NCBI RefSeq assembly: GCF_000341735.1
Contig: NZ_KB455575.1
Span: 1,022,399 to 1,086,398 of the forward strand
Direction of reading: 5' to 3'
Source: Methylotuvimicrobium buryatense 5G
Lineage (GTDB): Bacteria > Pseudomonadota > Gammaproteobacteria > Methylococcales > Methylomonadaceae
DNA: 64,000 nt
Positions within the stretch are counted from its first letter, which is position 1, and each line of letters opens with the position of its first letter. The translations under genes and the position numbers were made by a program. The notes under the pieces are model-generated. The model saw only the letters and a program-made list of their open reading frames with translations. It had not been told where the DNA came from and did no database searches. Shown here one piece after another: positions 2,269-38,185 of this stretch.

Positions 2269-4188
2269 ATGGCCATAGTAAAAAAAAATATTTCACAAGC
2301 TCATGTTGTTGCTGTCGATAGCGCAAAACAATCGACGGTTTCAGTGCGTGAAGCGGAAGCTCAACGTAAAAAGGCGCGGACTCTCGCCAAGCAGCAACAA
2401 GCCGCTGAGCGGATAGCCGCTGCAACAGGTCAACTTGCATCCGGCATCAATGAGGCAGCATCTGCTGCGGAGGAACTTAAACGCGCGTCCGACCAAATCG
2501 CTACGGGCGCCGAAGAAGCATCGGGGGCCGCGCACGAATCGTTGACCGCGTTCAAGCAAGTAGGTGATGCGGTTACTCGTCAAATGCAAAATGCCGAAGA
2601 AGGCCAAAAGAAAATGGATGCCACACAGTCCTTGGTCATGAAAACCAGCGATGAAATCATGGGCCTTGTTAATAATGTGGGCATTGCCGCTCAACGCCAA
2701 TCGACATCTGTCGAAATGGTGGTTGAGTTGGAAAAACAGGCGGCCAACATTGGCGATATCGTCAAAGCCGTAGCCCGTATTGCCGATCAAACCAATCTAT
2801 TGGCGCTCAATGCGGCGATCGAGGCCGCTCGAGCCGGAAAACATGGAAAGGGATTTGCTGTTGTCGCCGATGAAGTAAGAACGTTGGCCGAAACCTCGGA
2901 AAAAAGCGCCAAGCAGATACAGGACTTAGTCGGGCAGATACAACAGGAAGTCAAGATTATCGCCGACGGCATCAATAATTCCGCCAAAAACATCGAGGGC
3001 GAGGTCGAAAAAGGCAAGGCCATTACCGAACAATTAGAGCAAATTCGTCTGAATACGATCGATATTATCAATGGGGTTCGTGAGATTGCGGCCGTTGCTC
3101 AGCAATCGAATGTAGCCGCTTTGCAGGCATTGAAAGGCTCGGAAAACATTGCGGCGGCAGCCGAAGAACAGTCGGCTGCCGCAGAAGAAGCGGCTAAGAC
3201 GGTCGCCGAACAGGCCCAAGCGCTTGCGGAATGCGAACAAGCCGCACAAAGCTTGTCGGAGTTGGCGGAGGATCTGAAAAATTCGACAGACGTTGCCAAG
3301 AGTGCCGAAGAGGTGGCATCGGCGGCCGAACAATTGTCTTCGGCCGTTCAAGAAATCAATCGCTCTGGTACTCAGATCATGGCGGCGATAGAACAAATCC
3401 GTAAGGGCGCTCAGGTACAAGCGTCCGGATCAGAAGAGTCGGCAGCCGCTATAAGCCAAATCGACAAGGGATTGGAAGTTGCGCAAGGGCGAGCAGAGAC
3501 GAGTACCCAGAAGGTCAATGCGATTAAAGATATGTTGGCGGGCAACAAGACGAGCGTCGATGCATTGATTGAAGGGATTTCCAATTCGGCCGGCGCTTCT
3601 CGCTCCTGTATTAAACAAATTAAAGATTTGGGAATGGTGTCCCGCCGTATCGACAAGATTGTCGATGCGATTTCTACCGTTTCGATTCAAACGAATATGT
3701 TGGCGGTCAACGGTTCTATAGAGGCGGCGCGTGCGGGCGAGTTCGGCAAGGGGTTTGTTGTCGTTGCAACCGATATTCGTAATTTGGCGCATGATTCGGC
3801 CGAAAATGCGGATCGTATCAAGGATTTGGTGAAAGCGGTGCAAGATCAGATCGGTGTTGTGGAAAAGGATTTGGAAGAGATTGCAATTTCTGCGCATAGC
3901 GAGGTGGAAAAAGCCAAAACGATTACAGACAGTCTGGTAACCATCGAATCCGATATCTTAGGTGTCGAGCAAGGTACGCAACAAATTTTAATGGCAGCCA
4001 ATGAAATTGCGGCCGCGATCGGTCAAGTCAAAACGGGAGTCGATCAAATTGCAGCGGCCGCACAAGAAGCCGAAAAAGCGGCGTCTGAAGCCGCGTCCGC
4101 TGCAAATCAGCAATCTCAGGGTGCGGAAGAATTGGCCGCCGCAATCGAGGAAATTGCCTCGCTCGCCGACGAACTACAAAGTGCCTAA
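2269..4188 (+). CDS. Soluble methyl-accepting chemotaxis receptor with two signalling tips
   Basis: This 639-residue protein has no membrane segment or signal peptide, so it should be cytoplasmic. It is almost entirely Ala/Glu/Gln-rich coiled coil. Two separate receptor hairpin tips are visible: residues about 167-205 ([35 protein letters not shown]) and about 464-505 ([33 protein letters not shown]). A typical receptor has one tip, which binds CheA and CheW. The second tip departs from consensus (VNGS for [12 protein letters not shown]). No ligand-binding domain is evident. It opens chemosensory cluster 1, 30 bp ahead of the triple-CheW gene. The MCP class is sure; how the two tips fold is unknown. 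Confidence 0.9.
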
Positions 4189-4218
4189 GATGTTTCCAAA
4201 TATTGCTGAGAGTATGCC

Positions 4219-5817
4219 ATGACAACAGAAACCCTAGAGCAGCGGATGGAGCTAACCAAAGTTGAAGACTCGGTTGTTAAAGATACCGATTCCGATATTC
4301 GCCAGTTTGTTACTTTCATCGTCGGCAAAGAAGTTTTTGCCGTAGATATGGAACCGGTACAAGAAATTATTCGAGTTCCTCATGTGGTGCGCGTGCCGTT
4401 GGCTCCCGAAACATTAGAGGGATTAGCCAATTTACGAGGCAATGTTTTGCCGATTATTTCCTTGCGTAAAATATTTGGTTTTCAAGAGCGTGAATACGAT
4501 GATGCGACTCGTGCGGTCGTCATCAAGCAAGGACAACCGCTCGGTTTTGTGGTCGATAAAGTATCCAGTGTGGTCGGCATAGAGCCCGAAAACATCGAAG
4601 ATGTCGGTTCGATCAAAGGAACCGTGGATACCGATTTGCTTTCCGGATTGCTTAAGAATGTCGGCGGTCATGCAATGATCATGATTTTGGACTTTTCAAA
4701 ATTGATTATTCGAGAGTTTAAAGATATCGCCGAATTGAATTGTTCCGCGTCGCCCGTTGGAATATCAAGCGATTATGGTAATGAAGCGGCTGAAATGGAA
4801 GAGACGGTAAGCGATGAGTTGCAATTGGTGAGTTTTGTCGTAGCCGAACAGGAATATGCCATAGCGATCGAGGACGTTCAGGAAATCGTGCAAGTACCGG
4901 ATCATATCGTACAGGTTCCAAATTCCGAGTCGCATGTGTTAGGGATCATGACTCTGAGAAACCGGCTGTTGCCGTTGGTCAGTTTGCGCTGCATGTTCGG
5001 CTTGCCCGCTCTGAAGGCGGACGAGCATAGCCGTATCGTTGTCGTATCGTTGGGAACGGCGTCGGTTGGCGTGGTAATGGATAGCGTCAATGAGGTTTTG
5101 CGCGTCGGTAAAGCTTATGTCGAAAATATGCCGGGGCTATTCGCTCGCGACGGCGATTTGTCCGATATATCCGAAATTTGTCGTCTTGACGGAGGAGCGC
5201 GACTGGTTTCGATTATCTCTGCCGGAAATATGTTTCGGCATACTGCGGTCAAGGAAGCATTGAATACTGTGGATCAATTACGCGAGAACGAAAACATGTC
5301 CAACAATGAGATTATCGAAAACCAAGAGACCGAGATTATCGAAGACGAAGAGCAAGTAGTTGTTTTTCGTTTGGACAAGGAGGAATTCGGGGTGCCGATC
5401 GGTAGTGTTCAGGAAATTGTTCGTGTTCCAGATTCGTTGACGCATGTGCCGAAGGCGCCGGCTTTTGTCGAAGGTGTGATCAATCTTCGCGGATCGGTGC
5501 TTCCGGTCGTCGATCAACGCTTGAGATTGGGATTCTCGGCAGTAGAACGCAACGACAGACAACGTATCATGGTGTTTTTGTTAGACGGCATTCGCACGGG
5601 ATTTATAGTCGATTCGGTTTCGGAAGTATTGAAAATTTCGAAAAATACCATCGAACCGTCACCGCATTTGTCCAACGAGCAAGCGCAATTGATAAGTCGT
5701 GTTGCTAATCTGGAAAAGCAAAAAAGGTTGATTCAATTGATTGAACCGACACGGTTGATCGAAAGCCGTGATTTGAAGGGATTGGAAGAGTTGACAAAGC
5801 AAGATGGCCCTCAATGA
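4219..5817 (+). CDS. Triple-domain CheW coupling protein
   Basis: This 532-residue protein is three CheW domains in tandem. Domain 1 is about residues 27-168 (RQFVTFIVGKEVFAVDM, LANLRGNVLPIISLRK). Domain 2 is about 200-350 (LVSFVVAEQEYAIAIEDVQE, TLRNRLLPLVSLR). Domain 3 is about 375-515 (VVVFRLDKEEFGVPIGSVQE, INLRGSVLPVVDQR). Ordinary CheW is a single domain of about 160 residues linking receptor tips to the CheA kinase. Three copies in one chain could cross-link several receptor tips. It directly follows the two-tip receptor, which suggests that the two assemble together; this is inferred. The ATG at 4219 is the first in frame and has only a weak ribosome binding site. Confidence 0.92.
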   Translation: MTTETLEQRMELTKVEDSVVKDTDSDIRQFVTFIVGKEVFAVDMEPVQEIIRVPHVVRVPLAPETLEGLANLRGNVLPIISLRKIFGFQEREYDDATRAVVIKQGQPLGFVVDKVSSVVGIEPENIEDVGSIKGTVDTDLLSGLLKNVGGHAMIMILDFSKLIIREFKDIAELNCSASPVGISSDYGNEAAEMEETVSDELQLVSFVVAEQEYAIAIEDVQEIVQVPDHIVQVPNSESHVLGIMTLRNRLLPLVSLRCMFGLPALKADEHSRIVVVSLGTASVGVVMDSVNEVLRVGKAYVENMPGLFARDGDLSDISEICRLDGGARLVSIISAGNMFRHTAVKEALNTVDQLRENENMSNNEIIENQETEIIEDEEQVVVFRLDKEEFGVPIGSVQEIVRVPDSLTHVPKAPAFVEGVINLRGSVLPVVDQRLRLGFSAVERNDRQRIMVFLLDGIRTGFIVDSVSEVLKISKNTIEPSPHLSNEQAQLISRVANLEKQKRLIQLIEPTRLIESRDLKGLEELTKQDGPQ

Positions 5818-5870
5818 ATGTTTCAATGCGGCAATATAGATTGGCGATAATGAAAGGTACAGGGTAGCGC

Positions 5871-6923
5871 ATGATAAAAATATTGATTGTTGACGATTCG
5901 GCATTGATGAGACGCCATTTGGCAGCTGTGTTCGAAGCGGAGGGCGGATTCGAGATAGGTTTGGCGCGCAACGGAAAGGAAGCGGTGGAAGAAAATATGG
6001 CATTCAAACCGGATGTTGTAACCCTAGACATCAATATGCCGGAAATGGATGGCTTGACTGCCCTGGCATTGTTGATGGCGGAACGCCCCGTGCCGGTTGT
6101 CATGGTGTCGTCGCTGACGGAAAAAGGCGCTTTGGCCAGTTTCGAGGCGATGGCGCTCGGTGCGGTTGACTATATCGCGAAACCGGATGGAACCATATCG
6201 CTTTCGATCGATGCGATCAGGCGTGAAATTATCGACAAAGTGCGAGCGGCTTATCGGGCCAAACCGAAATGCGCGAGGGGCGGAAAAAATTTTCAGCGCG
6301 ACGCGATCAAGCCGGCTCAGAAAGAAGTCAAAAAACATTTCGAAACTGCTGATTCGGGAGTGGTCGTCATTGGCGTATCGACCGGAGGCCCTAGAACCTT
6401 GGAGGATATTTTGCCGCAACTACCGGAAGATTTTCCTTGGCCGATTCTAGTAGCTCAACACATGCCGAGCAGCTTTACATTGCCTTTTGCGAATCGAATG
6501 AACGACTTGTGCCGGTTACAGGTAACCGAAGCTTCGAGAATTGTACCGCTCGAAGCCGGAACGATTTACATTGCCAAGGGTGGCGCCGATGCCGTATTGA
6601 CTCGGAGAGTCGGCCGTCTGTCGATGCAGGCGAAACCCGAAGCCCCTGAGTATTTATGGCATCCGTCGGTCGAGTTATTAGGCAGGTCGGTATTGGAGCA
6701 TTACGAGCCGACACAGGTAATTGCCGTCATGTTGACCGGGATGGGGTATGACGGTGCCGATGCCTTTGCCGAAATCAGAAAAAAAGGCGGGCGTACGATT
6801 GCCGAGTCGGAAGCATCTGCGGTCGTATTCGGTATGCCGGCAGAACTGATCAAACGCGGCGGCGCGACGGTCGTGCTCGATTCCGGGCGCATTGCCGATC
6901 AGATCGTTCAGTGGGCCGGTTAA
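5871..6923 (+). CDS. cheB: CheB protein-glutamate methylesterase
   Basis: Receiver-methylesterase of 350 residues that removes methyl groups from receptor glutamates and deamidates glutamines. The receiver domain carries D53 in TLDINMPEMDG. The C-terminal esterase has the Ser-His-Asp triad: S170 in GVSTGG, H197 in AQHMPSS and D294 in LTGMGYDGAD. It lies 53 bp after the triple-CheW gene and is separated from the rest of cluster 1 by repeat copy A2. It is one of two CheB genes in the window; the other is at 18.8 kb. Confidence 0.95.
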   Translation: MIKILIVDDSALMRRHLAAVFEAEGGFEIGLARNGKEAVEENMAFKPDVVTLDINMPEMDGLTALALLMAERPVPVVMVSSLTEKGALASFEAMALGAVDYIAKPDGTISLSIDAIRREIIDKVRAAYRAKPKCARGGKNFQRDAIKPAQKEVKKHFETADSGVVVIGVSTGGPRTLEDILPQLPEDFPWPILVAQHMPSSFTLPFANRMNDLCRLQVTEASRIVPLEAGTIYIAKGGADAVLTRRVGRLSMQAKPEAPEYLWHPSVELLGRSVLEHYEPTQVIAVMLTGMGYDGADAFAEIRKKGGRTIAESEASAVVFGMPAELIKRGGATVVLDSGRIADQIVQWAG

Positions 6924-6925
6924 CT

Positions 6926-7207: not shown

Positions 7208-7240
7208 TGATTGTCAGGAAATGTATTAGGAGAACGACGG

Positions 7241-7879
7241 ATGATGAGTATTGTAAAAAAGCGAACAATCGAGAATGCCCAGAATAACGATACAAAGCAG
7301 ATTCATCGGGCGTTACCGGAATTGATCGACGCGATGGAATCATGCGACGTGAATGTCAGGCGTTTGGCCGCACGCGAATTGGCGTTTTATCCTGAAGCCG
7401 CACAAACACTGGTTTCGTGCCTAAAACGGGAATGCGATTCGAGCGTCAGGGAAGTCATTTTGACATCATTGACTCGATGCGATTCTCCCGAATTTGTAGA
7501 GGAATTGGCTGATTGTTTGAGAAGCGAAGATGCCTCGTTACGCAATGAAGTCATCGAAGCCATGAAAGCGATAACTGTGGAAGTCGTACCGGTGATGGAA
7601 CAATTGCTTGTCGATCCCGATCCGGATGTGCGGATTTTAGCCGTGAATATTTTGGAATCGTTGCGTCATCCCAAAGTGGAGCAATGGTTGATAAATATCA
7701 TCGAGCGAGATTCACACGTTAATGTTTGTGCCGCTGCAGTCGATTTGCTTTGCGAATTGGCTACGGAAAAATCGCGACCGGCGTTGGAGGTTTTTATAAC
7801 AAGATTTTCGGACGAGCCGTATATACGATTTGCCGCGGAATTGGCATTGTATCGAATCAAAGCGAATCGAATCACATAA
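7241..7879 (+). CDS. HEAT-repeat protein of the chemosensory cluster
   Basis: This 212-residue all-helical protein has repeating units of about 30 residues, such as DVNVRRLAARELAFYPEAA, DASLRNEVIEAMKAI, DPDVRILAVNILESLRHP and EPYIRFAAELALYRI, which are typical of HEAT/PBS-lyase-like scaffolds. No catalytic motif is seen. The ATG at 7241 (followed by another at 7244) is chosen because AGGAGA lies at 7228-7233; an upstream TTG at 7211 would fall before that site. It ends 12 bp before cheR, so the two are probably cotranscribed. A role as a protein-protein adaptor for CheR or the receptor array is inferred from position only. Confidence 0.8.
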   Translation: MMSIVKKRTIENAQNNDTKQIHRALPELIDAMESCDVNVRRLAARELAFYPEAAQTLVSCLKRECDSSVREVILTSLTRCDSPEFVEELADCLRSEDASLRNEVIEAMKAITVEVVPVMEQLLVDPDPDVRILAVNILESLRHPKVEQWLINIIERDSHVNVCAAAVDLLCELATEKSRPALEVFITRFSDEPYIRFAAELALYRIKANRIT

Positions 7880-7891: not shown

Positions 7892-8734
7892 ATGACGAAA
7901 ACGTTAATCAATGATGAAGATTTTCGAAAATTCGGGGAATATTTTTACCGTAAAACGGGTATTCAATTCGAGGTTTCGAAGCGTTATTTCGTCGACAAGC
8001 GTTTGATCGAACGGATCAATGCTACCCAATCCGATAATTTTCTAAATTATTTCATGATGCTGCGTTTCGACAGCGATGGCCTTGAGTTACAGAAATTAGT
8101 CAACTTGATGACCGTCAACGAAACCTATTTCTTTCGGGAGGCATACCAATTCGACTGTCTTGTAAACAGCATTTTGAACGAAATCACAGATACTAAAAAT
8201 GACCGAAGGCCGATACGGATTTGGTCTATACCGTCGGCTTCGGGCGAAGAGCCTTATTCAATCGTGATCTATTTATTGGAGCATTGGCCGGGTATCGAAC
8301 AGTGGGATGTTGAAATCATCTCTTCGGATATCGATACCGATATCATAGCCAGCGCAAAACGAGGCCACTATACGGATCGTTCGGTTCAGCATCTTCCCAA
8401 GTATTTGTTGAGAAAATATTTCGTCCCTAAAAACGATGGTTTTCAGATCTGTGACGATTTACGCGATGCCGTGGAATTCACCAGAGTTAATCTGATCGAT
8501 CCGATGGAGGTTCGCGCATATCGCGAATTCGATGTAATTTTCTGTCGAAATCTACTGATTTATTTCGACGATTTGTCACGCCGTCAGGCCGCCGATACGT
8601 TCTACGACGCTTTGAATCCGGGCGGATTTGTCTGCCTGGGGCATTCGGAGTCGATGAGCCGAATATCTTCGCTCTTTCGTGTACGTAAGTTTCCAGAGGG
8701 AATCGTCTACCAAAAGCCAAAGGAGGACATATGA
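7892..8734 (+). CDS. cheR: CheR chemoreceptor methyltransferase (cluster 1)
   Basis: SAM-dependent methyltransferase of 280 residues that methylates receptor glutamates. The N-terminal helical domain has the TVNETYFFRE motif at about residues 72-81. The SAM-binding motif is WSIPSASGEEPYS, an altered form of the usual WSAACSTGEEPYS. The later motifs FDVIFCRNLLIYFD and LNPGGFVCLGHSES are present. It overlaps the following cheY by 4 bp (ATGA). It is paired with the CheB at 5.9 kb, opposing methylation and demethylation. Confidence 0.93.
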   Translation: MTKTLINDEDFRKFGEYFYRKTGIQFEVSKRYFVDKRLIERINATQSDNFLNYFMMLRFDSDGLELQKLVNLMTVNETYFFREAYQFDCLVNSILNEITDTKNDRRPIRIWSIPSASGEEPYSIVIYLLEHWPGIEQWDVEIISSDIDTDIIASAKRGHYTDRSVQHLPKYLLRKYFVPKNDGFQICDDLRDAVEFTRVNLIDPMEVRAYREFDVIFCRNLLIYFDDLSRRQAADTFYDALNPGGFVCLGHSESMSRISSLFRVRKFPEGIVYQKPKEDI

Positions 8735-9102
8735 AACGCATTCTGATTGTCGACGATGCCGCTACGGTGCGGCTATATCATCGCAATATAATCGAATCGG
8801 CCGGTTTTGTGGCAGATGAAGCGATCAACGGCATCGAAGCCCTCGAGAAAGCGCTGTCTATGCCGTTCGACCTATTTCTGGTCGATATCAATATGCCGAA
8901 ACTCGATGGTTACGGTTTTATTAAAGAACTGCGAAGTCAAGATATCGCGCAAGCGCCGGCGATGATCGTTTCGACCGAAGCCAAGGAAAGCGACAGGGAT
9001 AAGGCATACATGGCCGGGGCCAACCTGTACATTATAAAGCCAACGAAACCACAGGAATTGTTGACGTATATCGGTTTGTTACTTGGGGAGGAGGCTGCAT
9101 GA
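8731..9102 (+). CDS. cheY: CheY-like single-domain response regulator
   Basis: Receiver domain only, 123 residues. The acidic pocket is VDD (residues 8-9), the phosphoacceptor is D52 in LVDINMPKLDG, the conserved Thr is in IVSTEAK and the Lys in YIIKPTKP. It lacks an output domain. It overlaps both cheR upstream and cheA downstream by 4 bp, indicating coupled translation and a direct CheA1 substrate. It is one of two CheY proteins flanking CheA1; one may act as a phosphate sink, but the sequence does not say which. Confidence 0.93.
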   Translation: MKRILIVDDAATVRLYHRNIIESAGFVADEAINGIEALEKALSMPFDLFLVDINMPKLDGYGFIKELRSQDIAQAPAMIVSTEAKESDRDKAYMAGANLYIIKPTKPQELLTYIGLLLGEEAA

Positions 9103-12095: not shown

Positions 12096-12111
12096 AATCC
12101 GGGGGGTGCTA

Positions 12112-27902: not shown

Positions 27903-29420
27903 TCAGTTTTCGTGTTGGGTCAGCATTAAAATAAAACCATTAAGTAAATTATTTTCGAGAATAGCTGTTATTTTTAAATCGACAAAAACCATACGCCCAT
28001 CCAAATATTTCAACAACAGTTTCTTAAAATAAGCTTCTTTCTTTTCTGCTTCGATGCATGTCATTAATGCATATTCGATCGATTGAAAATCTTCTCCGCT
28101 TAGTTGCAGTACTTCATCCACTTTATGTAAAGTTGAACTATTTAATTCCCATCCGGTTAAGCGTGCCGCATCTACCGTCATATCGGTAATCCAGCCATCT
28201 GCATTAAGTACAATAATTGCAGCATCCAATGCGTTCATCGCGGCACGATTGCGATCTAAATCACCTTGTAGTTGAGAATTAGTTTGATAAAGATCATCCA
28301 ATTGATCGCTCAATGATTCGTTACAAGATTCGATAACCTTAAGTCGTCTAACCATTTCATCGGTACGAACTGCAATCTGAGTGTCCATATAATAACGAAG
28401 TGAGGTCAACTCGTCTTCCATGCTTTTAGTTCTTGTTATGTCGATAAGAATGCCTTGCATAAACACGGTTCGATTATGCCTGTCTGTCGCAAAAGTTGCT
28501 GAATCATGGAACCAGCGAAATTTGCCGTCGGAACAACGTAGCCGATAGTCGCAACAAAAGGGGTGTTTTTGCTGACAGCTTTGACGAAAAAAGCTTTCAA
28601 TGTTGCCTCTATCTTCTTCGTGCATGCTTTCGAAACGGGATTGCGCATCAATCTTCCATAATTCCGTTGAAATTCCAAATTCTTCAGCCTTAGGACTTAG
28701 ATAAATAAAGCGCTCGTCATCGCCAAGCGAAATTACATATGAAACGGCTTGTATTCGCTCCATTAAAGAATCATACATCGCTTCTGTACGATATTTTTGC
28801 TTTAAAGTGTAATGGTGACTTAATATATATTTAATGCAGAAGGGTAATATATTCAAATAATGTCCATTTGAATCCTTTTGCAAAAAATCAGTGACGCCGA
28901 ATTCTAATTCAATCTCTTGTTGATTCGAGTCATTATTGTCGGAAATGCTAAGTATGGGAGGAGCTAATTCTTTTCTTATGTGTTTTAATCGAGATAAAAA
29001 TTCCGACTTATGCATGTCGGAAATCGAATTTCCTAACAAAATACAATCGATCGAATATTTCTCTATACTAGCCAGTCCTTGAGAGCCCGATTCACATTCT
29101 AATATTGTTAAATCGAAATCCGCTAAATACTTCTGATCTAAAGAACGGAGATAAGCTATTCGGTCATTTTGTTTTTTTTCAACCAGCAATATATGAACTT
29201 GTTTTTGTTCTTTCTCAGTATTACCTGTATATATGGAGGGCTGTGTATGGAAAATTAATTCATTTTCATTTTGTCTTGAACAGAATCCGGCTTCCGGTCG
29301 AGAATATTGATAATGGTGATTTCCAAACATATACGCAGAATTTCGCGTTATCGTTTTAGAAAATATATCACATTTATTAGAAGTCATATTGGTGGGTTCT
29401 GAGAACATTTTAGGCTCCAT
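27903..29420 (-). CDS. Pseudo-receiver and PAS domain protein without output domain
   Basis: This 505-residue protein has a divergent receiver-like domain (about 74-200), a PAS domain with PAC motif (about 225-345), a coiled coil (about 350-395) and a second PAS domain (about 395-500). The receiver phosphoacceptor is replaced by G130 (CILLGNSISDM) and the acidic pair reads LVEKK, so it should not be phosphorylated. No kinase, cyclase or DNA-binding domain follows. It may act as a signal-binding adaptor for nearby kinases. It is transcribed convergently to the NarL-type regulator. It is AT-rich like its neighbours. The start at 29420 has no strong ribosome binding site. Confidence 0.75.
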   Translation of the reverse strand: MEPKMFSEPTNMTSNKCDIFSKTITRNSAYMFGNHHYQYSRPEAGFCSRQNENELIFHTQPSIYTGNTEKEQKQVHILLVEKKQNDRIAYLRSLDQKYLADFDLTILECESGSQGLASIEKYSIDCILLGNSISDMHKSEFLSRLKHIRKELAPPILSISDNNDSNQQEIELEFGVTDFLQKDSNGHYLNILPFCIKYILSHHYTLKQKYRTEAMYDSLMERIQAVSYVISLGDDERFIYLSPKAEEFGISTELWKIDAQSRFESMHEEDRGNIESFFRQSCQQKHPFCCDYRLRCSDGKFRWFHDSATFATDRHNRTVFMQGILIDITRTKSMEDELTSLRYYMDTQIAVRTDEMVRRLKVIESCNESLSDQLDDLYQTNSQLQGDLDRNRAAMNALDAAIIVLNADGWITDMTVDAARLTGWELNSSTLHKVDEVLQLSGEDFQSIEYALMTCIEAEKKEAYFKKLLLKYLDGRMVFVDLKITAILENNLLNGFILMLTQHEN

Positions 29421-30427: not shown

Positions 30428-31639
30428 ATGCAAAACGAAACATTTATGGGACGAATCTTTCATCATGCGTGGCCGACTGCATTTACCGGCTTGCTTGGGT
30501 GTGTATTTATCTTGTTCTTCGATCGTGGCGAAGTGGTGGATCCTGTACTTGCATTAACCGTTGTATCGTTATATTTGTCTCACGTGTCTGCGAATAAAGC
30601 CTGCGCATCGATAGAACATGCCGTACAAGCCGAACGTGCTCAGCAGGAATCGAAAAGAAAAGCGCTCGAAGCTGAGACGGTCAAAGGACTTGATAAGTTA
30701 TGTGAAAATGTGCTTCCGGTTTGGTCTCGGCAAATCGATTTGGCTAGGCGGCATACCGAAGAGTCGATCAGCGGCTTGGCGAAGCGTTTTTCCGAATTAG
30801 TGGAAAGAATCGAATCGACTGTTTCTACTTCGGTTGAAACGACCGGACAAGGAGAGACAAGTGGTATTTTGCAAGTGCTTAAGGAAAGCGAAACGACTCT
30901 TGGCGATATCATCGATTCGTTTAAAAGTGCGCTCAATCTACGAGAGGCCTTGTTTAGCCAGATAACCGAGTTAACGAAATTTACCGTCGAATTGAAAGCA
31001 ATGGCCGCGAGCATTAGAGATATTGCCGGACAGACAAATTTACTGGCACTTAATGCATCAATTGAAGCCTCACGTGCCGGAGAGCACGGTCGCGGATTTG
31101 CTGTAGTCGCCGATGAAGTTAGAAAGCTGTCGATGTTATCGGGGGATGCGGGGCGTCATATTACTGAAAAAGTGGAGTTAGTTAATGCCGCCATCAAATC
31201 CGTATTCGATGCATCAGAGCATTATTCCATCGAAGACGCTGTCATCATTCGTAACGCCGAGAATGCAATGCAACATGTATTGGAGGGCTTTCAAGGGGTT
31301 GTGTCGTCATTGTCCGATACTTGTATCGTACTCCAAAAAGAAGGATGTCAAATCAAGGATGAAATTTCGAACGTCTTGATTGATTTGCAGTTTCAGGATC
31401 GAGTCGGGCAAATGCTCGATCATGTATGTACCGATTTGAACAAGCTGGAAGGTTATTTACTTGAGCGAGACTCGCATCCGAACGGGTATGCACAGACGGA
31501 GATCGATGCCGATTCGTGGCTTAACGAGTTGTCCTGTGCTTATACGATGCACGAGCAACGCGTGATGCATCACGTTAAATCGGGATACGGTTCGAAGCAA
31601 ACAGTAACAACTAAGCCGACGGAAATTACCTTTTTTTGA
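30428..31639 (+). CDS. Two-TM chemoreceptor of cluster 2 with CheZ-like motif
   Basis: Receptor of 403 residues. Two membrane helices (about 14-31 and 37-52) with a minimal loop lie at the N-terminus, so no periplasmic sensor domain is present. The signalling tip ([35 protein letters not shown]) is at about 197-235. The C-terminal [15 protein letters not shown] places D324 and Q328 in the CheZ-type D-x-x-x-Q spacing, as in the receptor at 12112. The shared architecture makes the two receptors paralogues, one per CheA cluster. It lies 12 bp upstream of cheY and should head the cluster 2 operon. Confidence 0.88.
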
Positions 31640-31651
31640 GGAGATAGCACT

Positions 31652-32020
31652 ATGAGTAAAACGGTCATGATCGTCGACGATTCAGCATCTATTAGGCAAG
31701 TTGTCAGCATTGCTCTGAAGGGGGCGGGTTATCAGGTTATCGAAGCCTGCGATGGTCAAGACGGACTGGCGAAAGTTAGCGGGCAGCGAGTTCATTTGAT
31801 TATCAGCGATGTCAACATGCCGAAAATGGACGGTATTTCTTTTGTAAAGGAGCTAAAAAAAATTCCGGAAACAAAATTCATTCCGGTAATCATGCTGACA
31901 ACCGAAAGTATGCAGGCGAAAAAGCAGGAAGGTCAAGCCGCTGGTGCGAGAGCTTGGGTAGTCAAGCCGTTTCAACCCGAGCAGATGATTGCGGCCGTTT
32001 CGAAATTGATTATGTCGTAG
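31652..32020 (+). CDS. cheY: CheY-like response regulator (cluster 2)
   Basis: Receiver domain of 122 residues: acidic pair VDD, phosphoacceptor D53 in IISDVNMPKMDG, Thr in MLTTES, Lys in WVVKPFQPEQ. It is preceded by GAGGAGA and followed 11 bp later by the STAS gene. It is the sole CheY of cluster 2 and the natural substrate of the CheA at 32352. It is closest in sequence pattern to the second CheY of cluster 1. Confidence 0.94.
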   Translation: MSKTVMIVDDSASIRQVVSIALKGAGYQVIEACDGQDGLAKVSGQRVHLIISDVNMPKMDGISFVKELKKIPETKFIPVIMLTTESMQAKKQEGQAAGARAWVVKPFQPEQMIAAVSKLIMS

Positions 32021-32031
32021 GAGTTCATGTC

Positions 32032-32355
32032 ATGAATATTCGGTTCGATTACGATCCCGAAAATAATCGTCTGAGTTTAGATGGTGAGATGACGATTTAT
32101 ACAGCGGCCGAACTCAAAGGCCGGTTGATGCAGAGACTGCATGAATCCGAAACGCTCGCTATCGATTTGTCCCGTGTCGGCGAAATCGATTCGTCGGGAG
32201 TCCAGTTACTATTGCTGATGTTCAGGGACGCTGCGACCAAAAATAAATGTATCCGTATTGTCGCATCGAGTCCGGCATTCGACGAAGTCGTGTTTTTGTG
32301 TTCCCTGCAAGAAGCGTTTGGAATGAACGGTATCGAAGCCGAGGAGGAGGCATGA
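32032..32355 (+). CDS. STAS-domain protein (SpoIIAA-like) in cluster 2
   Basis: STAS domain of 107 residues: LSLDGEMTIYTAAELKGRL, then LAIDLSRVGEIDSSGVQLLL, where the Ser pair in DSSG corresponds to the phosphorylatable Ser of SpoIIAA-type antagonists. ATG 32032 is chosen for AGGAG at 32019-32023; the longer frame from 31954 runs through cheY. It overlaps cheA by ATGA. A kinase for this Ser is not in the cluster, but two RsbT-like kinases are encoded 17 kb upstream. The connection is inference. Confidence 0.9.
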   Translation: MNIRFDYDPENNRLSLDGEMTIYTAAELKGRLMQRLHESETLAIDLSRVGEIDSSGVQLLLLMFRDAATKNKCIRIVASSPAFDEVVFLCSLQEAFGMNGIEAEEEA

Positions 32356-34520
32356 ATCTGGATGAAGCGTTACAGACTTTTATTGAAGAAAGCAGCGACT
32401 TACTGACTCAAATGGAAGAAGCTTTGATACTGTCCGAGCAATCCGAAGAAATTTCTGAAATCGTCAATGTACTGTTTAGGGCGGCGCATACGATCAAAGG
32501 ATCGGCCGGTTTGTTTGGGTTTGATCACATAGTTTCGTTTACCCATGTTGTCGAAAGTTTGCTGGATAGGGTTAGGACGGCGGAACTCGAGCTGACTTCC
32601 GATCTGATCGCATTGTTGATGTATAGCCGCGATCATATCGCCGATTTGCTTGAAGACATGACCCCCGAACCTGGTAATGTCAGCGACGAGTTGCGCGAGA
32701 AAGGCGACCGGCTCGTCGAGCAATTGAAATGTCATCTTGGTAGCGATGAATCAATGCCGACTAAACCAAACGAAGATACGTCGGTTGCCCCAAACCGGAC
32801 AAACTGTGATCAGCGGCCGGTTCGTTCAGAAAATTGGCATATTTCGTTACGGTTTGCTCCTGATATATTGAAAAACGGCATGGAACCGTTTTCGTTTCTG
32901 CGTTATTTGTCCACTTACGGCGATATCGACCATGTTTGCACGGTTCCGGACGCGATTCCTTCAGAAGAGAAAATGGATCCTGAAATCAGTTATTTGGGAT
33001 ATGAACTCAGTTTCAAGAGCCGAGCCGAGCGGTCGGCGATCGATAGTACGTTCGACTTCATTCGCGATGGTAGTCAGATTAGACTGATACCGCCGCATGC
33101 CGATATTTCCGAATATATTGAGTTGATAACAATATTGCCGGAATCGAACGAGCGGGTCGCCGAATCTATCCGGAAGTGCGGTTCGTTGACTCAAGAAGAA
33201 TGTCGAACCGCGCTTTCGGAAATACAGCGGGTAAGTGCAGCCGATAGAACTCAGGTATCTAGAAGCGATATCGAAGCAAGTCCACCCGCGCCTAAATCGA
33301 ATCCATCGGAACGCAATGCGACGACCGTCGCAAAGAACGGAGAAAATCGCTTTATACGTGTGGACTCGGTCAAGCTGGATCGATTGATCGATCTGATCGG
33401 CGAATTGATCATCGCCGGCGCGAGTACAAGCATGGTGGCCCGAAAAATTGGCGTCGCCGAATTGCGGGAATCGACTTCGATTCTTTCTCGATTGGTCGAG
33501 GAGGTACGAAATACCGCATTAAATTTGCGAATGGTGCAAATCGGTACGATTTTCAATCGTTTTCAGCGCGTCGTTCGCGACGTAAGTCAAGAGCTCGGTA
33601 AAGATATCGAATTAATTGTCGAAGGCGCTGAAACCGAGTTAGACAAAACGGTCGTTGAGCGCATTGCCGACCCGTTGATGCATTTAGTCAGAAACGCAAT
33701 CGATCACGGCATTGAGCCGTTTGAGCTGCGTAGGGATAGAGGTAAGCCCGATAAAGGTACGGTCAGACTCGGTGCCTATCATGAGTCGGGCAGTATCGTA
33801 ATCGAAGTTGAGGACGACGGCGGTGGGTTGGATCGGGATGTCATTCTGGCGAAAGCGGTCGAGAAAGGCTTAGTTAGCGAAGGCCAATCAATGAGCGATC
33901 ATGAAGTTTTCAATTTGGTATTCGAGGCCGGATTCTCGACGGCTAAGGAAGTCAGTAATTTATCGGGCCGCGGAGTCGGGATGGATGTCGTTCGGCGCAA
34001 TATCGTCGATTTACGCGGTAGCGTTGAATTGTCGAGCCGGCTAGGAGAGGGAACCTCAGTCAAGATTCGATTACCGTTGACGTTGGCTATAATCGACGGT
34101 TTTTTAGTCGGCATCGGCAACGCGACCTATGTTTTACCCCTCGACATGGTTGTCGAATGTATAGAGCTAGCCGCCTGGAATCAAGAGGTCGGAGACGACA
34201 AGCGTTATTTGAATCTGCGCGGCGAGGTGATGCCGTATCTGAGATTGCATGAACATTTCGGAATATCGGGCAAGATCGGCAAACAGCGCAACGTCGTTGT
34301 TTTGAATTATGCAGGCGAAAAATTCGGTTTAGTCGTAGAAAAATTGATGGGCGAATTTCAAACGGTGATTAAACCGATGGGGAAAATGTTAGAGAAAGTC
34401 CAAGGTATTAGCGGCTTTACGATACTGGGTGGCGGGGATGTCGCATTGGTTTTAGACGTGCCGGGGTTGATGCGGCAAATTGTTCTTGAGCATGAACGCG
34501 AGGAGGATACCGTGCATTGA
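32352..34520 (+). CDS. cheA: CheA chemotaxis histidine kinase (cluster 2)
   Basis: CheA of 722 residues. P1/HPt has H46 in RAAHTIKGSAG. The P2-like region is about 160-300. The dimerisation domain starts near 332 (IRVDSVKLDRLIDLIGEL). The ATPase domain has its N box near 440 (ADPLMHLVRNAIDHG), DDGGGLD and GRGVGMDVVRR, and the CheW-like domain runs from about 580. ATG 32352 follows GGAGGAGG and overlaps the STAS stop; the frame open from 32247 is not coding before this ATG. It is clearly diverged from the CheA at 9.1 kb, so the two arrays are separate systems rather than a recent duplication. Confidence 0.95.
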   Translation: MNLDEALQTFIEESSDLLTQMEEALILSEQSEEISEIVNVLFRAAHTIKGSAGLFGFDHIVSFTHVVESLLDRVRTAELELTSDLIALLMYSRDHIADLLEDMTPEPGNVSDELREKGDRLVEQLKCHLGSDESMPTKPNEDTSVAPNRTNCDQRPVRSENWHISLRFAPDILKNGMEPFSFLRYLSTYGDIDHVCTVPDAIPSEEKMDPEISYLGYELSFKSRAERSAIDSTFDFIRDGSQIRLIPPHADISEYIELITILPESNERVAESIRKCGSLTQEECRTALSEIQRVSAADRTQVSRSDIEASPPAPKSNPSERNATTVAKNGENRFIRVDSVKLDRLIDLIGELIIAGASTSMVARKIGVAELRESTSILSRLVEEVRNTALNLRMVQIGTIFNRFQRVVRDVSQELGKDIELIVEGAETELDKTVVERIADPLMHLVRNAIDHGIEPFELRRDRGKPDKGTVRLGAYHESGSIVIEVEDDGGGLDRDVILAKAVEKGLVSEGQSMSDHEVFNLVFEAGFSTAKEVSNLSGRGVGMDVVRRNIVDLRGSVELSSRLGEGTSVKIRLPLTLAIIDGFLVGIGNATYVLPLDMVVECIELAAWNQEVGDDKRYLNLRGEVMPYLRLHEHFGISGKIGKQRNVVVLNYAGEKFGLVVEKLMGEFQTVIKPMGKMLEKVQGISGFTILGGGDVALVLDVPGLMRQIVLEHEREEDTVH

Positions 34521-34600
34521 TATTGAACGAAGACGGACTAATGTACGGCTCTGCGTTGTGCAACAATCGAGTCTGAAAAATAGCTCGAAGGAGATTGTTT

Positions 34601-37600
34601 ATGTTTACTACTATGAAATTGGGCACCCGGATCGGTTTGGGTTATTTCGTTGCATTGTTTTGCTTATTGCTTAGCGGTGTGTATGGTGCGATGAACTTAA
34701 AATCGGCCAATCAAGAGATGGGAACGATATACGAAGATAGGGTGGTTCCCTTAAAAGGGCTTAAGGCAATCGCCGATGCCTATGCGATCAATGTTATTGA
34801 TGCGGTCAATAAGACTAATGCCGGATTAATGAGTGCCGAAGAAGCTTTACAGAGTATTCGTAATGCTAGTCGACAAATTGGCCGTGAATGGAAGGCCTAC
34901 ACGGCCACGCGTCTGACGGACGAGGAAGAACGCTTGGCCGAACAAGCAGGCAAGTTGTTCGAGGCAGCCAATAGCGATATTCAGCGATTGGAGTCACTAT
35001 TGGAACGCCAATCGGGACTCATTGAAGGGCAATTAAGAGAATTCGACGGACCGCTTTACGCCAATATCGATCCAATCGGTAATAAAGTCGCCGAATTGAT
35101 CGACTTGCAATTGAATGTGGCCGATGAAATCTATCGTATGTCGGCCGATAATTATCTGCTCATGTTACAACTGACGGCAGTGATTATCGTCGTTTCGATG
35201 ATTGTTTCCGCATGGCTCGGTTTAGCGATTACCCGTAGCGTCATGAATCAGTTGGGCGGCGAGCCGGCGCTGGTTTATGACATAGGCAACAAAATATCTG
35301 GCGGCGATTTGAGCAGCAAAATTGATTGCAAGCCGGGCGATACGAACAGTTTATTGTATGGCATGGGGCGGATACAGCAAGCGATTCGATTGCTGGTCGA
35401 CGACACCTCGATGTTGACCCGATCGGCTCGCGAAGGGTTGCTTTCAACTCGGGCCGATACCGAACGACACAGCGGAGATTTTCGCGAAGTTATCGAGGGA
35501 TTCAACGGCTGCCTCGACGCGGTAATCGGTCCGCTTAATGTTGCGGCCGATTATGTCGATAGGATTTCGAAAGGCGATATGCCGCCGAAGATTACCGATA
35601 CTTATAAAGGCGATTTCAATACGATCAAGAACAATTTGAACACCTGCATCGAAGCAATCGATACAATGGTCGCCGAAGCCAACAATCTAGAACAGGCCGC
35701 TATCGAAGGCCGTCTGTCGACCCGTGCAGATGCGAGTCGTTATCAAGGCGACTACCGTAAAGTCGTCGAGGGCGTCAATAATTGTCTCGATGCGGTAATC
35801 GGACCGCTAAACGTTGCGGCCGACTATGTCGACAGGATCTCGAAAGGCGATATGCCGCCGAAGATTACCGCGACCTACAACGGGGATTTCAATGTCATCA
35901 AAAATAACCTGAATACCTGTATCGAAGCAATTAACTTAATGGTGGCTGAGGCTAACAATCTCGAACAGGCCGCAATACAAGGCATGTTGTCGGTTCGCGC
36001 CGATGCAAGTCAATATCAGGGAGACTATCGCAAAGTTGTCGAGGGAGTCAATAATTGTCTCGACGCGGTAATCAGCCCGCTAAACGTTGCGGCCGACTAT
36101 GTCGACAGGATTTCGAAAGGCGACATGCCGCCGAAGATTACCGCGACCTACAACGGGGATTTCAATGTCATCAAAAATAACCTGAATACCTGTATCGAAG
36201 CAATTAATTTAATGGTGGCTGAGGCCAGTAATCTCGAACAGGCTGCAATACAAGGCATGTTGTCGGTTCGCGCCGATGCGAGTCAATATCAAGGAGACTA
36301 TCGCAAAGTTGTCGAAGGGGTCAACAATTGTCTCGATGCGGTAATAGGTCCGCTTAATGTTGCGGCAGATTACGTCGATAAAATCGCCAAAGGCGAGGTT
36401 CCTCCGAAGATTACCGACAGTTATAACGGTGATTTCAATACGATCAAAAACAATTTGAACACCTGTATTGACGCAATCAATCGAATGGTTGCAGATGCGG
36501 CGATGTTGGCCGAAGCCGCCATTGATGGCCGTTTGGAGGCGCGAGCCGACGCATCGAAGCACCTAGGTGATTACCGGAAGATAGTCGAAGGCGTAAATCA
36601 AACGCTCGATTCGGTGATAGGTCCGGTAAACGACGTGATGCAATCGTTGGCTGCGATGGAAAAAGGCAATTTGACGCGAACCGTCGATGGCGAATACAAA
36701 GGGAAACTGAAGGAATTGCGTGACATGTTGAATAATACGCTGACTCGTTTGTCTCAAACTGTTGCCGAGATCAATATGACGACTCAGGAGCTAAATAATG
36801 CTTCCGAGCAGGTTAATGCAACCGCGCAGAGCTTAAGTCAGGCTGCTAGCGAGCAAGCGGCTAGTGTGGAGGAAACCTCATCGTCGATCGAACAAATGTC
36901 GGCATCGGTCAATCAAAACTCTGAGAATGCCAAAGTTACCGACGGCATTGCAACTAAAGCGGCTAAGGAAGCCGAAGAAGGTGGGGGGGCCGTAAAACAG
37001 ACCGTGACGGCAATGAAAAGTATTGCCGAGAAAATAGGCATCATCGACGATATTGCTTATCAGACCAATCTATTGGCGCTCAATGCGGCAATTGAAGCCG
37101 CGCGAGCCGGGGAGCACGGTAAGGGGTTCGCTGTTGTTGCAGCCGAGGTGCGTAATTTAGCGGAGCGCAGTCAGGTCGCGGCACAGGAAATCGGGGAACT
37201 GGCAGGGAAAAGCGTCGATACTGCCGAGAAAGCAGGAGGACTGCTCGATCAAATGCTGCCGTCGATCCAGAAGACTTCAGACCTCGTGCAGGAGATTGCA
37301 GCTGCATCCGAAGAGCAATCGGCCGGTGTGAGCCAGATTAATACGGCGATTAGTCAATTGAATCAAGTGGCACAGCAAAACGCCAGCGCAGCGGAAGAGC
37401 TGTCGTCGACTTCCGAAGAATTGGGGGCAAAATCTTCGCAACTGGGCGATTTGATGAGCTTTTTCAAAATTACCGAACAATCTGCGGGAAATCGCTTGGC
37501 TGCTGGCGGGAATTTGAAATTAGTGCATAAAGTTTCGAGCCGGACCAAAAAAATCGTCAATGAAGCTCAAGACGAGGAATTGGCGGATGACGAATTCGAA

Positions 37601-37615
37601 TACGCCCGATTCTAG
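34601..37615 (+). CDS. Chemoreceptor with four tandem HAMP-like repeats
   Basis: This 1004-residue receptor has membrane helices at about 9-30 and 184-210 enclosing a helical periplasmic sensor of four-helix-bundle type. A partial HAMP-like unit and four 91-residue repeats ([34 protein letters not shown]) follow at about 304-667, then the signalling domain with its tip near 814-860 ([20 protein letters not shown]). The C-terminus, EYARF after an acidic stretch, fits the x-[aromatic]-x-x-[aromatic] pattern of CheR/CheB docking pentapeptides. ATG 34601 follows GAAGGAG at 34587-34593. It is probably the main receptor of cluster 2. Confidence 0.92.
35510..36601 (+). repeat. Four in-frame 273-bp tandem repeats
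   Basis: Units start at 35510, 35783, 36056 and 36329, exactly 273 bp apart. Units 2 and 3 are almost identical at DNA level, while units 1 and 4 differ more. The spacing preserves the reading frame, so unit number can change by recombination without breaking the receptor. Confidence 0.9.
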
Positions 37616-37624
37616 GAGGTTATC

Positions 37625-38185
37625 ATGGAAAAAGTTGCCGATCGAAATAAGAAACAAGCGCATGATGTCGATCTTGAGCAGAATCAATATCTAACATTCA
37701 TGATTGCTGGCGATACTTTTGCGATGGGGATATTGGCTATAAAAGAGATCATTCAATATGGTCAGCTAACTGAAATTCCTCGCATGCCTGCGTTTATTCG
37801 AGGGGTTATCAATTTGCGCGGCGCGGTTGTGCCTGTTATCGATTTGAATGCCCGGTTCAATATGCCTGAGGCCCGCGTATCACGCCGTTCGTGCATTATT
37901 ATTGTTGAAATTCATACGGAAGAAGGCGAAAAACAAGATATCGGCGTTATGGTTGATGCTGTCAATGAGGTCCTGGAGATTCTACCGGCCGATATAGAAC
38001 CGGCTCCCTCATTCGGCGCTAATATCCGTTCCGACTTCATCGGTGGCATGGGTAAGATCAAAGGTCGGTTCGTGATTATTTTGAATATCGATCAAGTATT
38101 ATCGTTGTTTGAAATAGCGGATATAACAAGTGTTGCATCAATGGTTCGGAAGTCGTCAGAAACGGCAGAAAGAATGGCGGCCTAA
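37625..38185 (+). CDS. cheW: CheW coupling protein (cluster 2)
   Basis: Single-domain CheW of 186 residues: YLTFMIAGDTFAMGILAIKE, then GVINLRGAVVPVIDLNARF and IGVMVDAVNEVLEI. It links receptor tips to CheA2. It lies 9 bp after the poly-HAMP receptor with AGGAGG at the junction, so the two are cotranscribed. It is close in size to classical CheW, unlike the triple-domain protein of cluster 1. Confidence 0.95.
   Translation: MEKVADRNKKQAHDVDLEQNQYLTFMIAGDTFAMGILAIKEIIQYGQLTEIPRMPAFIRGVINLRGAVVPVIDLNARFNMPEARVSRRSCIIIVEIHTEEGEKQDIGVMVDAVNEVLEILPADIEPAPSFGANIRSDFIGGMGKIKGRFVIILNIDQVLSLFEIADITSVASMVRKSSETAERMAA

Follow-up and report, generated by a model that had tools for sequence, protein, structure and literature searches.

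Gene content of the locus

The window, a stretch of 64,000 nucleotides from Methylotuvimicrobium buryatense 5G, holds a chemosensory operon (cluster 1, 2269-13335) that is followed directly by RsbR-S-T-T-X (13467-16160), an RsbU_N histidine kinase and a lone receiver (16150-17628). Further on lie CheR2, CheB2 and a GGDEF-EAL protein (17795-22094) and a second chemosensory cluster (cluster 2, 30428-38185). Pfam bears out this gene content, which a preliminary description of the locus had already given. The features, with the basis of each call, are as follows.

2269..4188, plus strand: MCP1, cytoplasmic receptor with two signalling hairpins (DosM-like), F9 chassis (Pfam MCPsignal, two stretches)
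4219..5817, plus strand: triple CheW, 532 aa, F9 hallmark (Pfam CheW, three stretches, 312.7 bits)
5871..6923, plus strand: CheB1 (Pfam Response_reg and CheB_methylest)
7211..7879, plus strand: HEAT-repeat protein, F9 chassis (Pfam HEAT_2, 88.3 bits; equal place in relatives' operons)
7892..8734, plus strand: CheR1 (Pfam CheR)
8731..9102, plus strand: CheYa (Pfam Response_reg)
9099..11471, plus strand: CheA1 (Pfam Hpt, H-kinase_dim, HATPase_c, CheW)
11471..11719, plus strand: small STAS-fold protein in the CheA-CheY interval (no Pfam or NCBIfam match; fold comparison)
11721..12095, plus strand: CheYb (Pfam Response_reg)
12106..13335, plus strand: MCP2, receptor, last F9 core gene (Pfam MCPsignal)
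13467..14342, plus strand: RsbR (Pfam RsbRD_N and STAS; both phospho-threonine positions kept)
14339..14725, plus strand: RsbS (Pfam STAS; DSYMARVL phospho-serine motif)
14729..15148, plus strand: RsbT1 switch kinase (Pfam HATPase_c; N and G boxes intact)
15142..15555, plus strand: RsbT2 switch kinase (Pfam HATPase_c; N and G boxes intact)
15552..16160, plus strand: RsbX-like feedback phosphatase (Pfam SpoIIE, 41.1 bits; DGLGHG and SDG motifs)
16150..17223, plus strand: RsbU_N histidine kinase (Pfam RsbU_N, 32.3 bits against a cut-off of 25.5, HisKA, HATPase_c)
17233..17628, plus strand: REC1, lone receiver (Pfam Response_reg)
17795..18637, plus strand: CheR2 (relative comparison)
18841..19947, plus strand: CheB2 (relative comparison)
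19932..22094, plus strand: PAS-GGDEF-EAL protein, no RsbU_N match (Pfam)
27903..29420, minus strand: PAS/receiver gene between the stressosome block and cluster 2
30428..38185, plus strand: cluster 2 core, MCP3, CheY, STAS (32032-32355), CheA2, poly-HAMP MCP, CheW (Pfam)

Cluster 1 is classed as F9-type by two described features seen in its genes: the concatenated triple CheW and a cytoplasmic receptor that has paired signalling domains (DosM). In MCP1 the two hairpins have their tips at residues 174 and 474, and there is no hydrophobic, membrane-like stretch; MCP2 has two membrane-like segments (hydrophobic stretches 24-42 and 48-66). No F9 ParA gene was found in the window, which counts against a single unit. 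The short gene at 11471-11719, overlooked in the preliminary description, is kept in F9 operons. AlphaFold2 models its product with a pLDDT of 90.6, and by fold it comes closest to RsbV as solved together with RsbW (E 3.9e-4, TM-score 0.61). Searches of solved structures with the CheY, receptor and CheW proteins gave general family matches only. A literature search for CheW with HEAT repeats returned a single paper, a passage of which describes an archaeal HEAT protein linking Che proteins to the motor.

Pfam and the gene overlaps place RsbR with its STAS domain, the STAS protein RsbS and the RsbT kinases in one operon-like run. The motifs expected of active or phosphorylated sites are kept in RsbR, RsbS, both RsbT and RsbX, here and in relatives; the exceptions among the relatives are locus L095, where the first RsbR site is Ile, and L078, whose RsbT1 has DHGSGI for DxGPGI. 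Among the Pfam matches of the window proteins there is no sigma factor in the cassette, and the statement that no flagellar or sigma factor gene lies nearby holds for the 30 proteins scanned with Pfam and 10 flanking proteins.

Limits of the unit and the second chemosensory cluster

The 4-bp overlaps and tight spacing noted previously are real (-4 at 8731, 9099, 14339 and 15552, and also at 32352, provided that this is the CheA2 start). Gaps of 131 bp at 13335 and 166 bp at 17628 leave space for promoters and count against a single unit. Promoter-like and terminator-like sites are fewer than in shuffled sequence (7 against 24.2 and 20 against 25.4, respectively), so the scan supports no statement on transcript ends. 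Rfam gave no match at gathering scores; ten proteins had no NCBIfam match above the curated cut-off (for three of them, among the matches listed). The locus had been described as lying wholly on the plus strand from 2.3 to 38.2 kb, but the PAS/receiver gene at 27903-29420 is on the minus strand. Three more genes (REC-kinase, MASE1-kinase and LuxR regulator) lie at 22-30 kb, where the DNA is 38-41% GC as against 45-53% in the flanking parts.

CheR2 and CheB2 are 61% and 63% identical, respectively, to the adjoining CheR and CheB that end the cluster 2 operon of Methylobacter tundripaludum, and in genome G036 a 50.5% identical relative of CheR2 follows CheW2. Since the homologous pair closes the M. 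tundripaludum operon, CheR2 and CheB2 most likely belong to cluster 2, which on gene comparison would form with them a separate system neighbouring the F9 unit. In M. tundripaludum cluster 2 has equal gene order and lies about 520 kb from F9. In a Methylicorpusculum genome (G010) no cluster 2 was found in the 60 kb around the F9-stressosome unit, and relatives of CheA2 are on other contigs. Cluster 2 and F9 were linked in neither of these relatives (n=2).

The preliminary description had joined both arrays and the stressosome in one co-oriented unit; the association of the stressosome with one chemosensory operon is supported, membership of the second array is not supported, and the unit of 2.3-38.2 kb was drawn too large. 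Its model of the stressosome tuning receptor adaptation through a spare CheR/CheB is probably wrong. The pair resembles cluster 2's own, and its assignment to the stressosome was set aside because the M. tundripaludum counterpart belongs to cluster 2. The suggested link to c-di-GMP is only indirect in the window, where the GGDEF-EAL protein lacks an RsbU_N match; it looks direct in M. tundripaludum, whose cassette includes an RsbU_N-like PAS-GGDEF-EAL protein.

Occurrence of the F9-stressosome arrangement in other genomes

Conserved gene order in distant genomes had been put forward as the test of a unit, and such order is found. We kept 80 F9 loci from other genomes, all with a relative of the triple CheW, and 50 of these were usable; the other 30 were set aside because CheA was incomplete, a second receptor was not found, or the sequence ran on for under 1.3 kb past that receptor. 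The search for RsbS covered 50 of the 80 loci, chosen by hand and including all those with a stressosome. RsbR-S-T-T-X directly follows MCP2 in 15 of the 50 usable loci, from methanotrophs, purple sulphur bacteria, Burkholderiales and one Desulfuromonadales genome; several linked genomes, the last included, are metagenome bins. Two further genomes, one of another class, have rearranged versions. The RsbU_N kinase and receiver come next in 13 of the 15, the exceptions being L099 (kinase only) and L136 (about 1 kb of contig remains past RsbS). In 8 of 18 linked genomes ParA lies beyond RSTTX, kinase and REC1, such that the cassette is nested in the F9 operon; the Methylicorpusculum unit ends with receiver and ParA. 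ParA is within 560 bases of MCP2 in 19 of the 34 usable loci in which no stressosome was seen (L149 set apart). The genome of another class, G446, has F9, a receiver, RSTTX and an RsbU_N-like kinase in one run. Its RsbS is only 47% identical, and the sampling that yielded this genome did not select for F9.

Among the F9 operons and the stressosomes examined, the majority of each are unjoined. No stressosome directly follows MCP2 in 35 of the 50 usable loci, a count that includes L149, which has one a few genes on, and that refers to the 1.7-3.2 kb viewed beyond, so that others may have one. RsbS searches of broad samples led to 32 genomes, of which 29 gave no triple CheW at E 1e-60. In two F9 genomes (G822 and G176) the F9-type RsbS is on a different contig, with no che gene within 12.7 kb upstream of it in G176.

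The kinase slot is modular. A Janthinobacterium kinase has a PAS-like region (22.3 bits, cut-off 23.1) and is accompanied by REC1, G258 has kinase and REC1 without RST, and in some relatives REC1 adjoins ParA without a stressosome. The G258 kinase matches RsbU_N at 31.5 bits, above the cut-off of 25.5; five of the six matching proteins of relatives fall below it, which counts against the one-unit view. These five proteins (two from M. tundripaludum, one each from Herbaspirillum, Methylicorpusculum and L149) align over the domain. A search of the phylum with the whole kinase was uninformative, as it found 183 of 398 genomes through the common kinase domain.

Trees of the F9 chassis and the stressosome share 11 of 13 splits for the 16 rows with direct linkage (no more than 3 when labels were shuffled 2000 times), and distances in the two sets correlate at 0.88, a value reached in 0 of 5000 shuffles. 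Agreement is weaker with L149 added (10 of 14 splits) and with the unlinked L097 also added (9 of 15). Descent of both gene sets with the species would also give such agreement; the comparison covered these two sets. The chassis tree, which covers 78 of the 80 loci and the window (G446 is in no tree), needs 9 changes between cassette present and absent; thus the cassette has been gained or lost often.

Known systems and models for the array

The claim that no described system joins these layers is partly upheld: among the papers listed in our literature search none combines F9 with a stressosome, but Shewanella Che1 has a partner-switch pair, and published work describes control of c-di-GMP by stressosomes and proposes an aerotaxis role for them. 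Likenesses to known systems can be summarised as (i) the F9 system of Vibrio cholerae (cluster I) shares the triple CheW, the DosM cytoplasmic receptor with double signalling domain and CheA, and has an operon-encoded receptor with a membrane region (24H type there) to which MCP2, with its two membrane-like segments, may correspond, whereas the F9 sections of that paper, compared by description, do not mention a stressosome, RsbU_N kinase or receiver module (PMC7534058); (ii) RSTX modules of V. vulnificus and other Proteobacteria place a signalling protein, which in some cases has RsbU_N, after RsbR-S-T-X, but the survey concerns globin-type RsbR and its section 10 names no chemosensory operon (PMC9237108), whereas in the window RsbR has an RsbRD_N match, there are two RsbT genes and the module is inside an F9 operon; (iii) Che1 of Shewanella oneidensis encodes the partner-switching pair CrsR/CrsA, tied to the RpoS response, but is called an F7 array, and its pair is anti-sigma/antagonist with no RsbR/S/T among the ten genes listed (PMC9855816); (iv) in Moorella thermoacetica RsbT controls a c-di-GMP enzyme through RsbU_N (RsbU_N-GGDEF), in passages that describe no chemosensory operon (PMC12143880, PMC4976288).

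Since the stressosome genes are inside the array operon, here and in distant relatives, stressosome and F9 array probably work together. That 2269-17628 is one signalling unit, with the complete stressosome as an extra sensory input, is a proposal to which we give about even weight. We propose that the stressosome most likely feeds F9 through RsbT, the RsbU_N kinase and the receiver. Stress would cause RsbT1 and RsbT2 to phosphorylate RsbR and RsbS and to detach from the stressosome. RsbT is described as acting on RsbU_N (PMC12143880). The adjacent RsbU_N histidine kinase is the likely target of freed RsbT, which by analogy with its action on RsbU would bind and alter kinase activity. The kinase would set REC1 phosphorylation, REC1 would act on the CheA/CheW base plate or, where ParA is present, on array placement, and RsbX would reset the stressosome. 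RsbU_N-GGDEF-EAL proteins may, in some lineages, pass the RsbT signal on to c-di-GMP as well. The F9 array would then be partly a stress-response device. G258, with kinase and REC1 but no RST, and L081, where a PAS-like region replaces RsbU_N, are as expected of an input.

The reverse direction is unlikely. Here the array would be upstream, CheA phosphorylating REC1 or regulating the RsbU_N kinase, with the stressosome as output or additional regulator of stress physiology or c-di-GMP. REC1 directly follows MCP2 in L079, L080, L087, L089, L097, L101 and L109; as no kinase gene separates the two, CheA could be the kinase for REC1 (in several of these little DNA is available past REC1, and in L087 part of a kinase is matched farther along). 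RsbU_N-like GGDEF-EAL proteins adjoin F9 in M. tundripaludum and Herbaspirillum, and the Shewanella Che system is proposed to control its partner switch (PMC9855816). The input-like variants above and the absence of a sigma factor from the cassette argue against this direction. It is very unlikely that RsbT leaves the stressosome to dock on the small STAS-fold protein, switching partners directly at the array. A relative of this protein is present in 65 of the 67 F9 loci holding the interval, and its fold best matches RsbV complexed with the kinase RsbW; yet 13 of 17 stressosome-linked loci carry Ala or Pro where the phosphorylated residue normally stands, which weakens the idea that RsbT phosphorylates it. 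Since the protein is also encoded in F9 operons that have no stressosome, it did not arise to serve one.

Mere co-location, an island of unrelated modules tolerated side by side and inherited together by chance, is improbable. The region is composite with variable GC, cluster 2 adjoins here and is 520 kb away in M. tundripaludum, a 34-kb block is wholly absent from a sister genome, and most F9 operons and stressosomes are unjoined. Against chance stand identical order and slot in 15 of 50 loci from several classes, nesting before the F9 ParA in eight genomes, and the divergent G446 case, which came up independently of any F9 criterion.

F9 arrays are documented in images and in their components, but no function is known for them; deletion of the V. 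cholerae F9 CheA is reported to give no detectable phenotype under standard conditions (PMC7534058). Finding a conserved stressosome within the operon gives a genetic hint of possible F9 stimuli in the lineages that carry it, and the proposed route through RsbT, the RsbU_N kinase and REC1 makes the purpose testable. If correct, a chemosensory array joins sigma factors and c-di-GMP as a stressosome target. A stronger form, in which array and stressosome make a physical or regulatory super-complex whose stress hub sets the lattice state by way of RsbT, an RsbU_N kinase and a receiver, and the long-unexplained F9 arrays serve stress response, not taxis, is possible but doubtful. Some of the species are named culture-collection strains, so experiments are possible.

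Gene content of the proposed chemosensory-stressosome unit

The genes named in the preliminary description are present as described (Pfam), but it overlooked a small open reading frame between CheA and CheY of the first chemosensory operon. The genome holding the window (5.07 Mb) has six CheA-type matches. The parts considered here are:

2269-13335, cluster 1, F9-type chemosensory operon (MCP1, triple CheW, CheB, HEAT, CheR, CheY, CheA, CheY, MCP2)
11471-11719, small open reading frame within cluster 1
13467-16160, stressosome genes RsbR-RsbS-RsbT-RsbT-RsbX (RSTTX)
16150-17223, kinase with an RsbU_N domain
17233-17628, lone receiver, which with RSTTX and the kinase makes up the cassette
17795-19947, CheR2 and CheB2
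30428-38185, cluster 2, second chemosensory set

The block 2269-17628 is tightly packed, its gene junctions ranging from -11 to +53 bases with two exceptions (287 bases in front of the HEAT gene, and 131 from MCP2 to RsbR); 166 bases separate the end of the receiver from CheR2. A transposase gene (654-1346, minus strand) lies upstream of the F9 operon. At eight F9 loci from several genera (L101, L131, L138, L144, L145, L148, L150 and L155) a LuxR-type regulator and a kinase precede MCP1 and resemble the pair at 23.7-27.4 kb of the window.

By its architecture, cluster 1 is assigned to the F9 systems. A review covering the F9 system of Vibrio cholerae (PMC7534058) names as its hallmarks three CheW units fused in one protein, an array that is purely cytoplasmic and whose receptor has two signalling domains, and an operon-encoded receptor with a membrane region. 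Cluster 1 has the triple CheW; MCP1 lacks a hydrophobic segment and shows two hairpin tips (residues 174 and 474), and MCP2 has two hydrophobic, membrane-like segments. According to the review, cells deleted for the F9 CheA show no detectable phenotype in standard conditions, low oxygen induces the F9 clusters, and their function is elusive.

The 11471-11719 protein has a relative in 65 of 67 F9 loci. Its predicted structure (pLDDT 90.6) has a STAS fold, the nearest solved fold being RsbV bound to RsbW (E 3.9e-4). Thirteen of 17 linked loci have Ala or Pro at the usual phosphorylation position, so a phospho-switch at this protein seems unlikely.

Position and inheritance of the stressosome in F9 operons

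Scanning the genome collection with a triple-CheW alignment gave at least 587 pattern-matching stretches, 568 of them encoding a relative (any CheW counted), and the best 80 of the 568 loci were retained. The order receptor-CheW3-CheB-HEAT-CheR-CheY-CheA-CheY-receptor is repeated in nearly all loci that are long enough, and 50 of the 80 were usable, in that they contain the end of CheA and the second receptor and reach 1.3 kb or more past it. The preliminary description had looked to conserved order in distant species as support for a unit, and such conservation is found: RsbR, RsbS, RsbT, RsbT and RsbX are the next same-strand genes after the second receptor in 15 of the 50 usable loci. These linked genomes, several of which are metagenome bins, comprise Methylicorpusculum, Methylobacter tundripaludum, two Allochromatium, Lamprobacter, Thiorhodococcus, Imhoffiella, Halochromatium, Marichromatium, Ectothiorhodospira shaposhnikovii, Undibacterium, one Burkholderiaceae, one Desulfuromonadales and two unplaced proteobacterial genomes. 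An RsbU_N kinase and a receiver follow RsbX in 13 of the 15, with a second kinase between them in the Burkholderiaceae locus; at L099 the kinase alone was matched after RsbX, and the L136 contig stops about 1 kb past RsbS.

One further locus, L149, is rearranged (kinase, receiver, ParA, then RSTTX) and was set apart, leaving 34 usable loci in which no stressosome was seen. In 19 of these 34 a gene for a ParA ATPase begins no more than 560 bases from the second receptor, in some with a receiver in front. ParA lies beyond RSTTX, kinase and receiver in eight linked genomes (Lamprobacter, GSL.Bin27, Halochromatium, E. shaposhnikovii, the Desulfuromonadales, M. tundripaludum, Undibacterium and Methylicorpusculum). 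In these eight the cassette is nested inside the F9 operon, ahead of ParA. The window has no such ParA.

With few exceptions the RsbS phospho-serine, the RsbR threonines, the N and G boxes of both RsbT, the RsbX metal motifs, the kinase histidine and the receiver aspartate are kept, residues expected to form the active or phosphorylated sites. The exceptions are Ile at one RsbR site in L095 and an altered G box in RsbT1 of L078.

Mapped on the 79-row chassis tree, the stressosome requires 9 changes for its 16 rows, compared with 14.6 under shuffling (0 of 500 shuffles as low); the cassette is clustered, yet has been gained or lost repeatedly. Across the 16 directly linked rows the stressosome and chassis trees have 11 of 13 splits in common (at most 3 in 2000 label shuffles), and their distances correlate at 0.88 (0 of 5000 permutations as high). 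Split agreement is 10/14 with L149 added and 9/15 with the unlinked L097 as well; one tree places L097 next to Undibacterium, the other next to the Desulfuromonadales row. This agreement is what joint inheritance predicts, although plain descent with the species would yield the same. The 19 F9-type stressosomes, among them the two that are unlinked, cluster together and separately from five others (support 100/99) in a tree that does not include the genome G446.

Broader samples show how restricted the joining is. Among 369 genomes of the window's class, triple CheW (E 1e-60) occurs in 8 and RsbS (E 1e-10) in 9, both together in only two, the window's and G176; at the same threshold RsbS occurs in 24 of 398 phylum genomes. 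Across both samples, window excluded, 2 of 31 stressosome genomes have triple CheW. One is G176, whose RsbS is F9-type (64%) with no che gene in the 12.7 kb upstream on its contig. The other, G446, belongs to another class, and its F9 operon continues directly into a receiver, RsbR, RsbS, two RsbT, RsbX and an RsbU_N-like kinase, with RsbS only 47% identical. The seven other class-sample stressosome loci have no F9 chassis in the 5.9-20 kb fetched for each, which holds only lone receivers, kinases, regulators and GGDEF genes. In L206 and L207 the stressosome is followed by a kinase that resembles the MASE1 kinase of the window in the latter's C-terminal part, then by a LuxR regulator and a GGDEF protein.

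RsbS is present in 7 of 61 near relatives: the window, Methylicorpusculum and five more at 31-41% identity, these five having no F9 chassis in 13-40 kb around RsbS. Among these five, G008 and G035 gave only weak CheR/CheB-like matches (27-29%) there. RsbS was also searched in 50 of the 80 F9 genomes, a deliberate selection that included every stressosome locus. F9-type RsbS (62-74% identity) was present in 17, directly linked in 15, rearranged in L149 and on another contig in G822; nine further genomes gave RsbS matches at 31-46%, and G818, the one site inspected among them, has no F9 chassis. Most stressosomes are thus unconnected to F9, most F9 operons show no adjoining stressosome, and, as the sample counts indicate, the joining is specific to certain lineages.

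A possible route from stressosome to array

According to one study (PMC12143880), RsbT that has left a stressosome attaches to RsbU at its N-terminal domain and linker, and the linker becomes a coiled coil; the authors argue that domains of this kind can control both histidine kinases and diguanylate cyclases, and point out that stressosome operons include kinases with RsbU_N. The window kinase matches RsbU_N at 32.3 bits (cut-off 25.5, Pfam). Freed RsbT would bind this domain of the adjoining kinase and alter signalling by the kinase and receiver, whose output may pass on to the F9 array.

The stressosome slot itself varies. G258 (locus L065) lacks RsbR-S-T-T and half of RsbX, and retains the kinase and receiver; at L065 12191-12502 the C-terminal half of RsbX immediately follows the second receptor. 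The kinase of a Janthinobacterium genome has a PAS-like region (22.3 bits, cut-off 23.1) where RsbU_N would otherwise be. Both variants fit a stressosome that serves the kinase and receiver as an interchangeable input, and suggest that signalling runs in this direction. The M. tundripaludum cassette has a second RsbU_N-like protein, with PAS-GGDEF-EAL (18.4 bits), and in Herbaspirillum one directly follows the F9 operon (24.4 bits); both regions align with the domain of the kinases despite scoring below the cut-off.

The separate parts are known, and their combination appears to be new. Among the matches listed, titles and abstract openings in the open-licence literature yielded no stressosome inside a chemosensory operon. 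In related work, stressosome modules with kinases or GGDEF proteins have been described (PMC9237108), a stressosome role in aerotaxis has been suggested (PMC4260858, PMC4976288), and the Shewanella Che1 system carries a partner-switch pair (PMC9855816).

Cluster 2 and a probable deletion in a sister genome

Cluster 2 had been grouped with the stressosome, and CheR2/CheB2 read as a spare pair in the stressosome block; neither proposal is supported by the relatives compared. In M. tundripaludum the cluster-2 genes (MASE1-like kinase, LuxR regulator, receptor, CheY, STAS, CheA2, poly-HAMP receptors, CheW, CheR2 and CheB2) form one group that lies about 520 kb away from the F9 unit, the window's CheR2 and CheB2 are 61% and 63% identical to the pair there, and in G036 a CheR2 relative likewise follows CheW2. 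From this gene content, identity and order, 17.8-38.2 kb of the window is most simply one chemosensory system, permuted in order, with CheR2/CheB2 as its own pair.

In G002, a genome of the same genus with flanks 92-98% identical, window position 2864 is joined to 37051. The 34-kb block absent there holds nearly all of the region discussed, and in its place is an in-frame chimeric receptor of 357 residues (L225, G002:C2:2348665-2349738) whose beginning is that of the window's first receptor and whose end is that of the window's poly-HAMP receptor. Most simply read, an ancestor shared by the two genomes carried the complete block, and G002 lost it when two receptor hairpins recombined. Neither a full-length triple CheW match nor RsbS turned up in five further genomes of the genus (one 79% complete).

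Several further features lie in and beyond cluster 2. The poly-HAMP receptor (34595-37615) has five HAMP_2 stretches that look near-identical in translation, as if recently multiplied. A gamma-glutamyltranspeptidase (39504-41248) is split into two open reading frames, the interruption being a repeat (about 186 bp, near 40601-40787). Other parts of the genome contain several near-identical copies of this repeat, which is missing at the corresponding place in G002. Another repeat of about 160 bp (around 41827-41986), with dozens of copies listed in the genus, looks mobile or REP-like. Three adjoining HDOD-domain genes, one with a cyclic-nucleotide-binding domain, occupy 45644-49683 on the minus strand.
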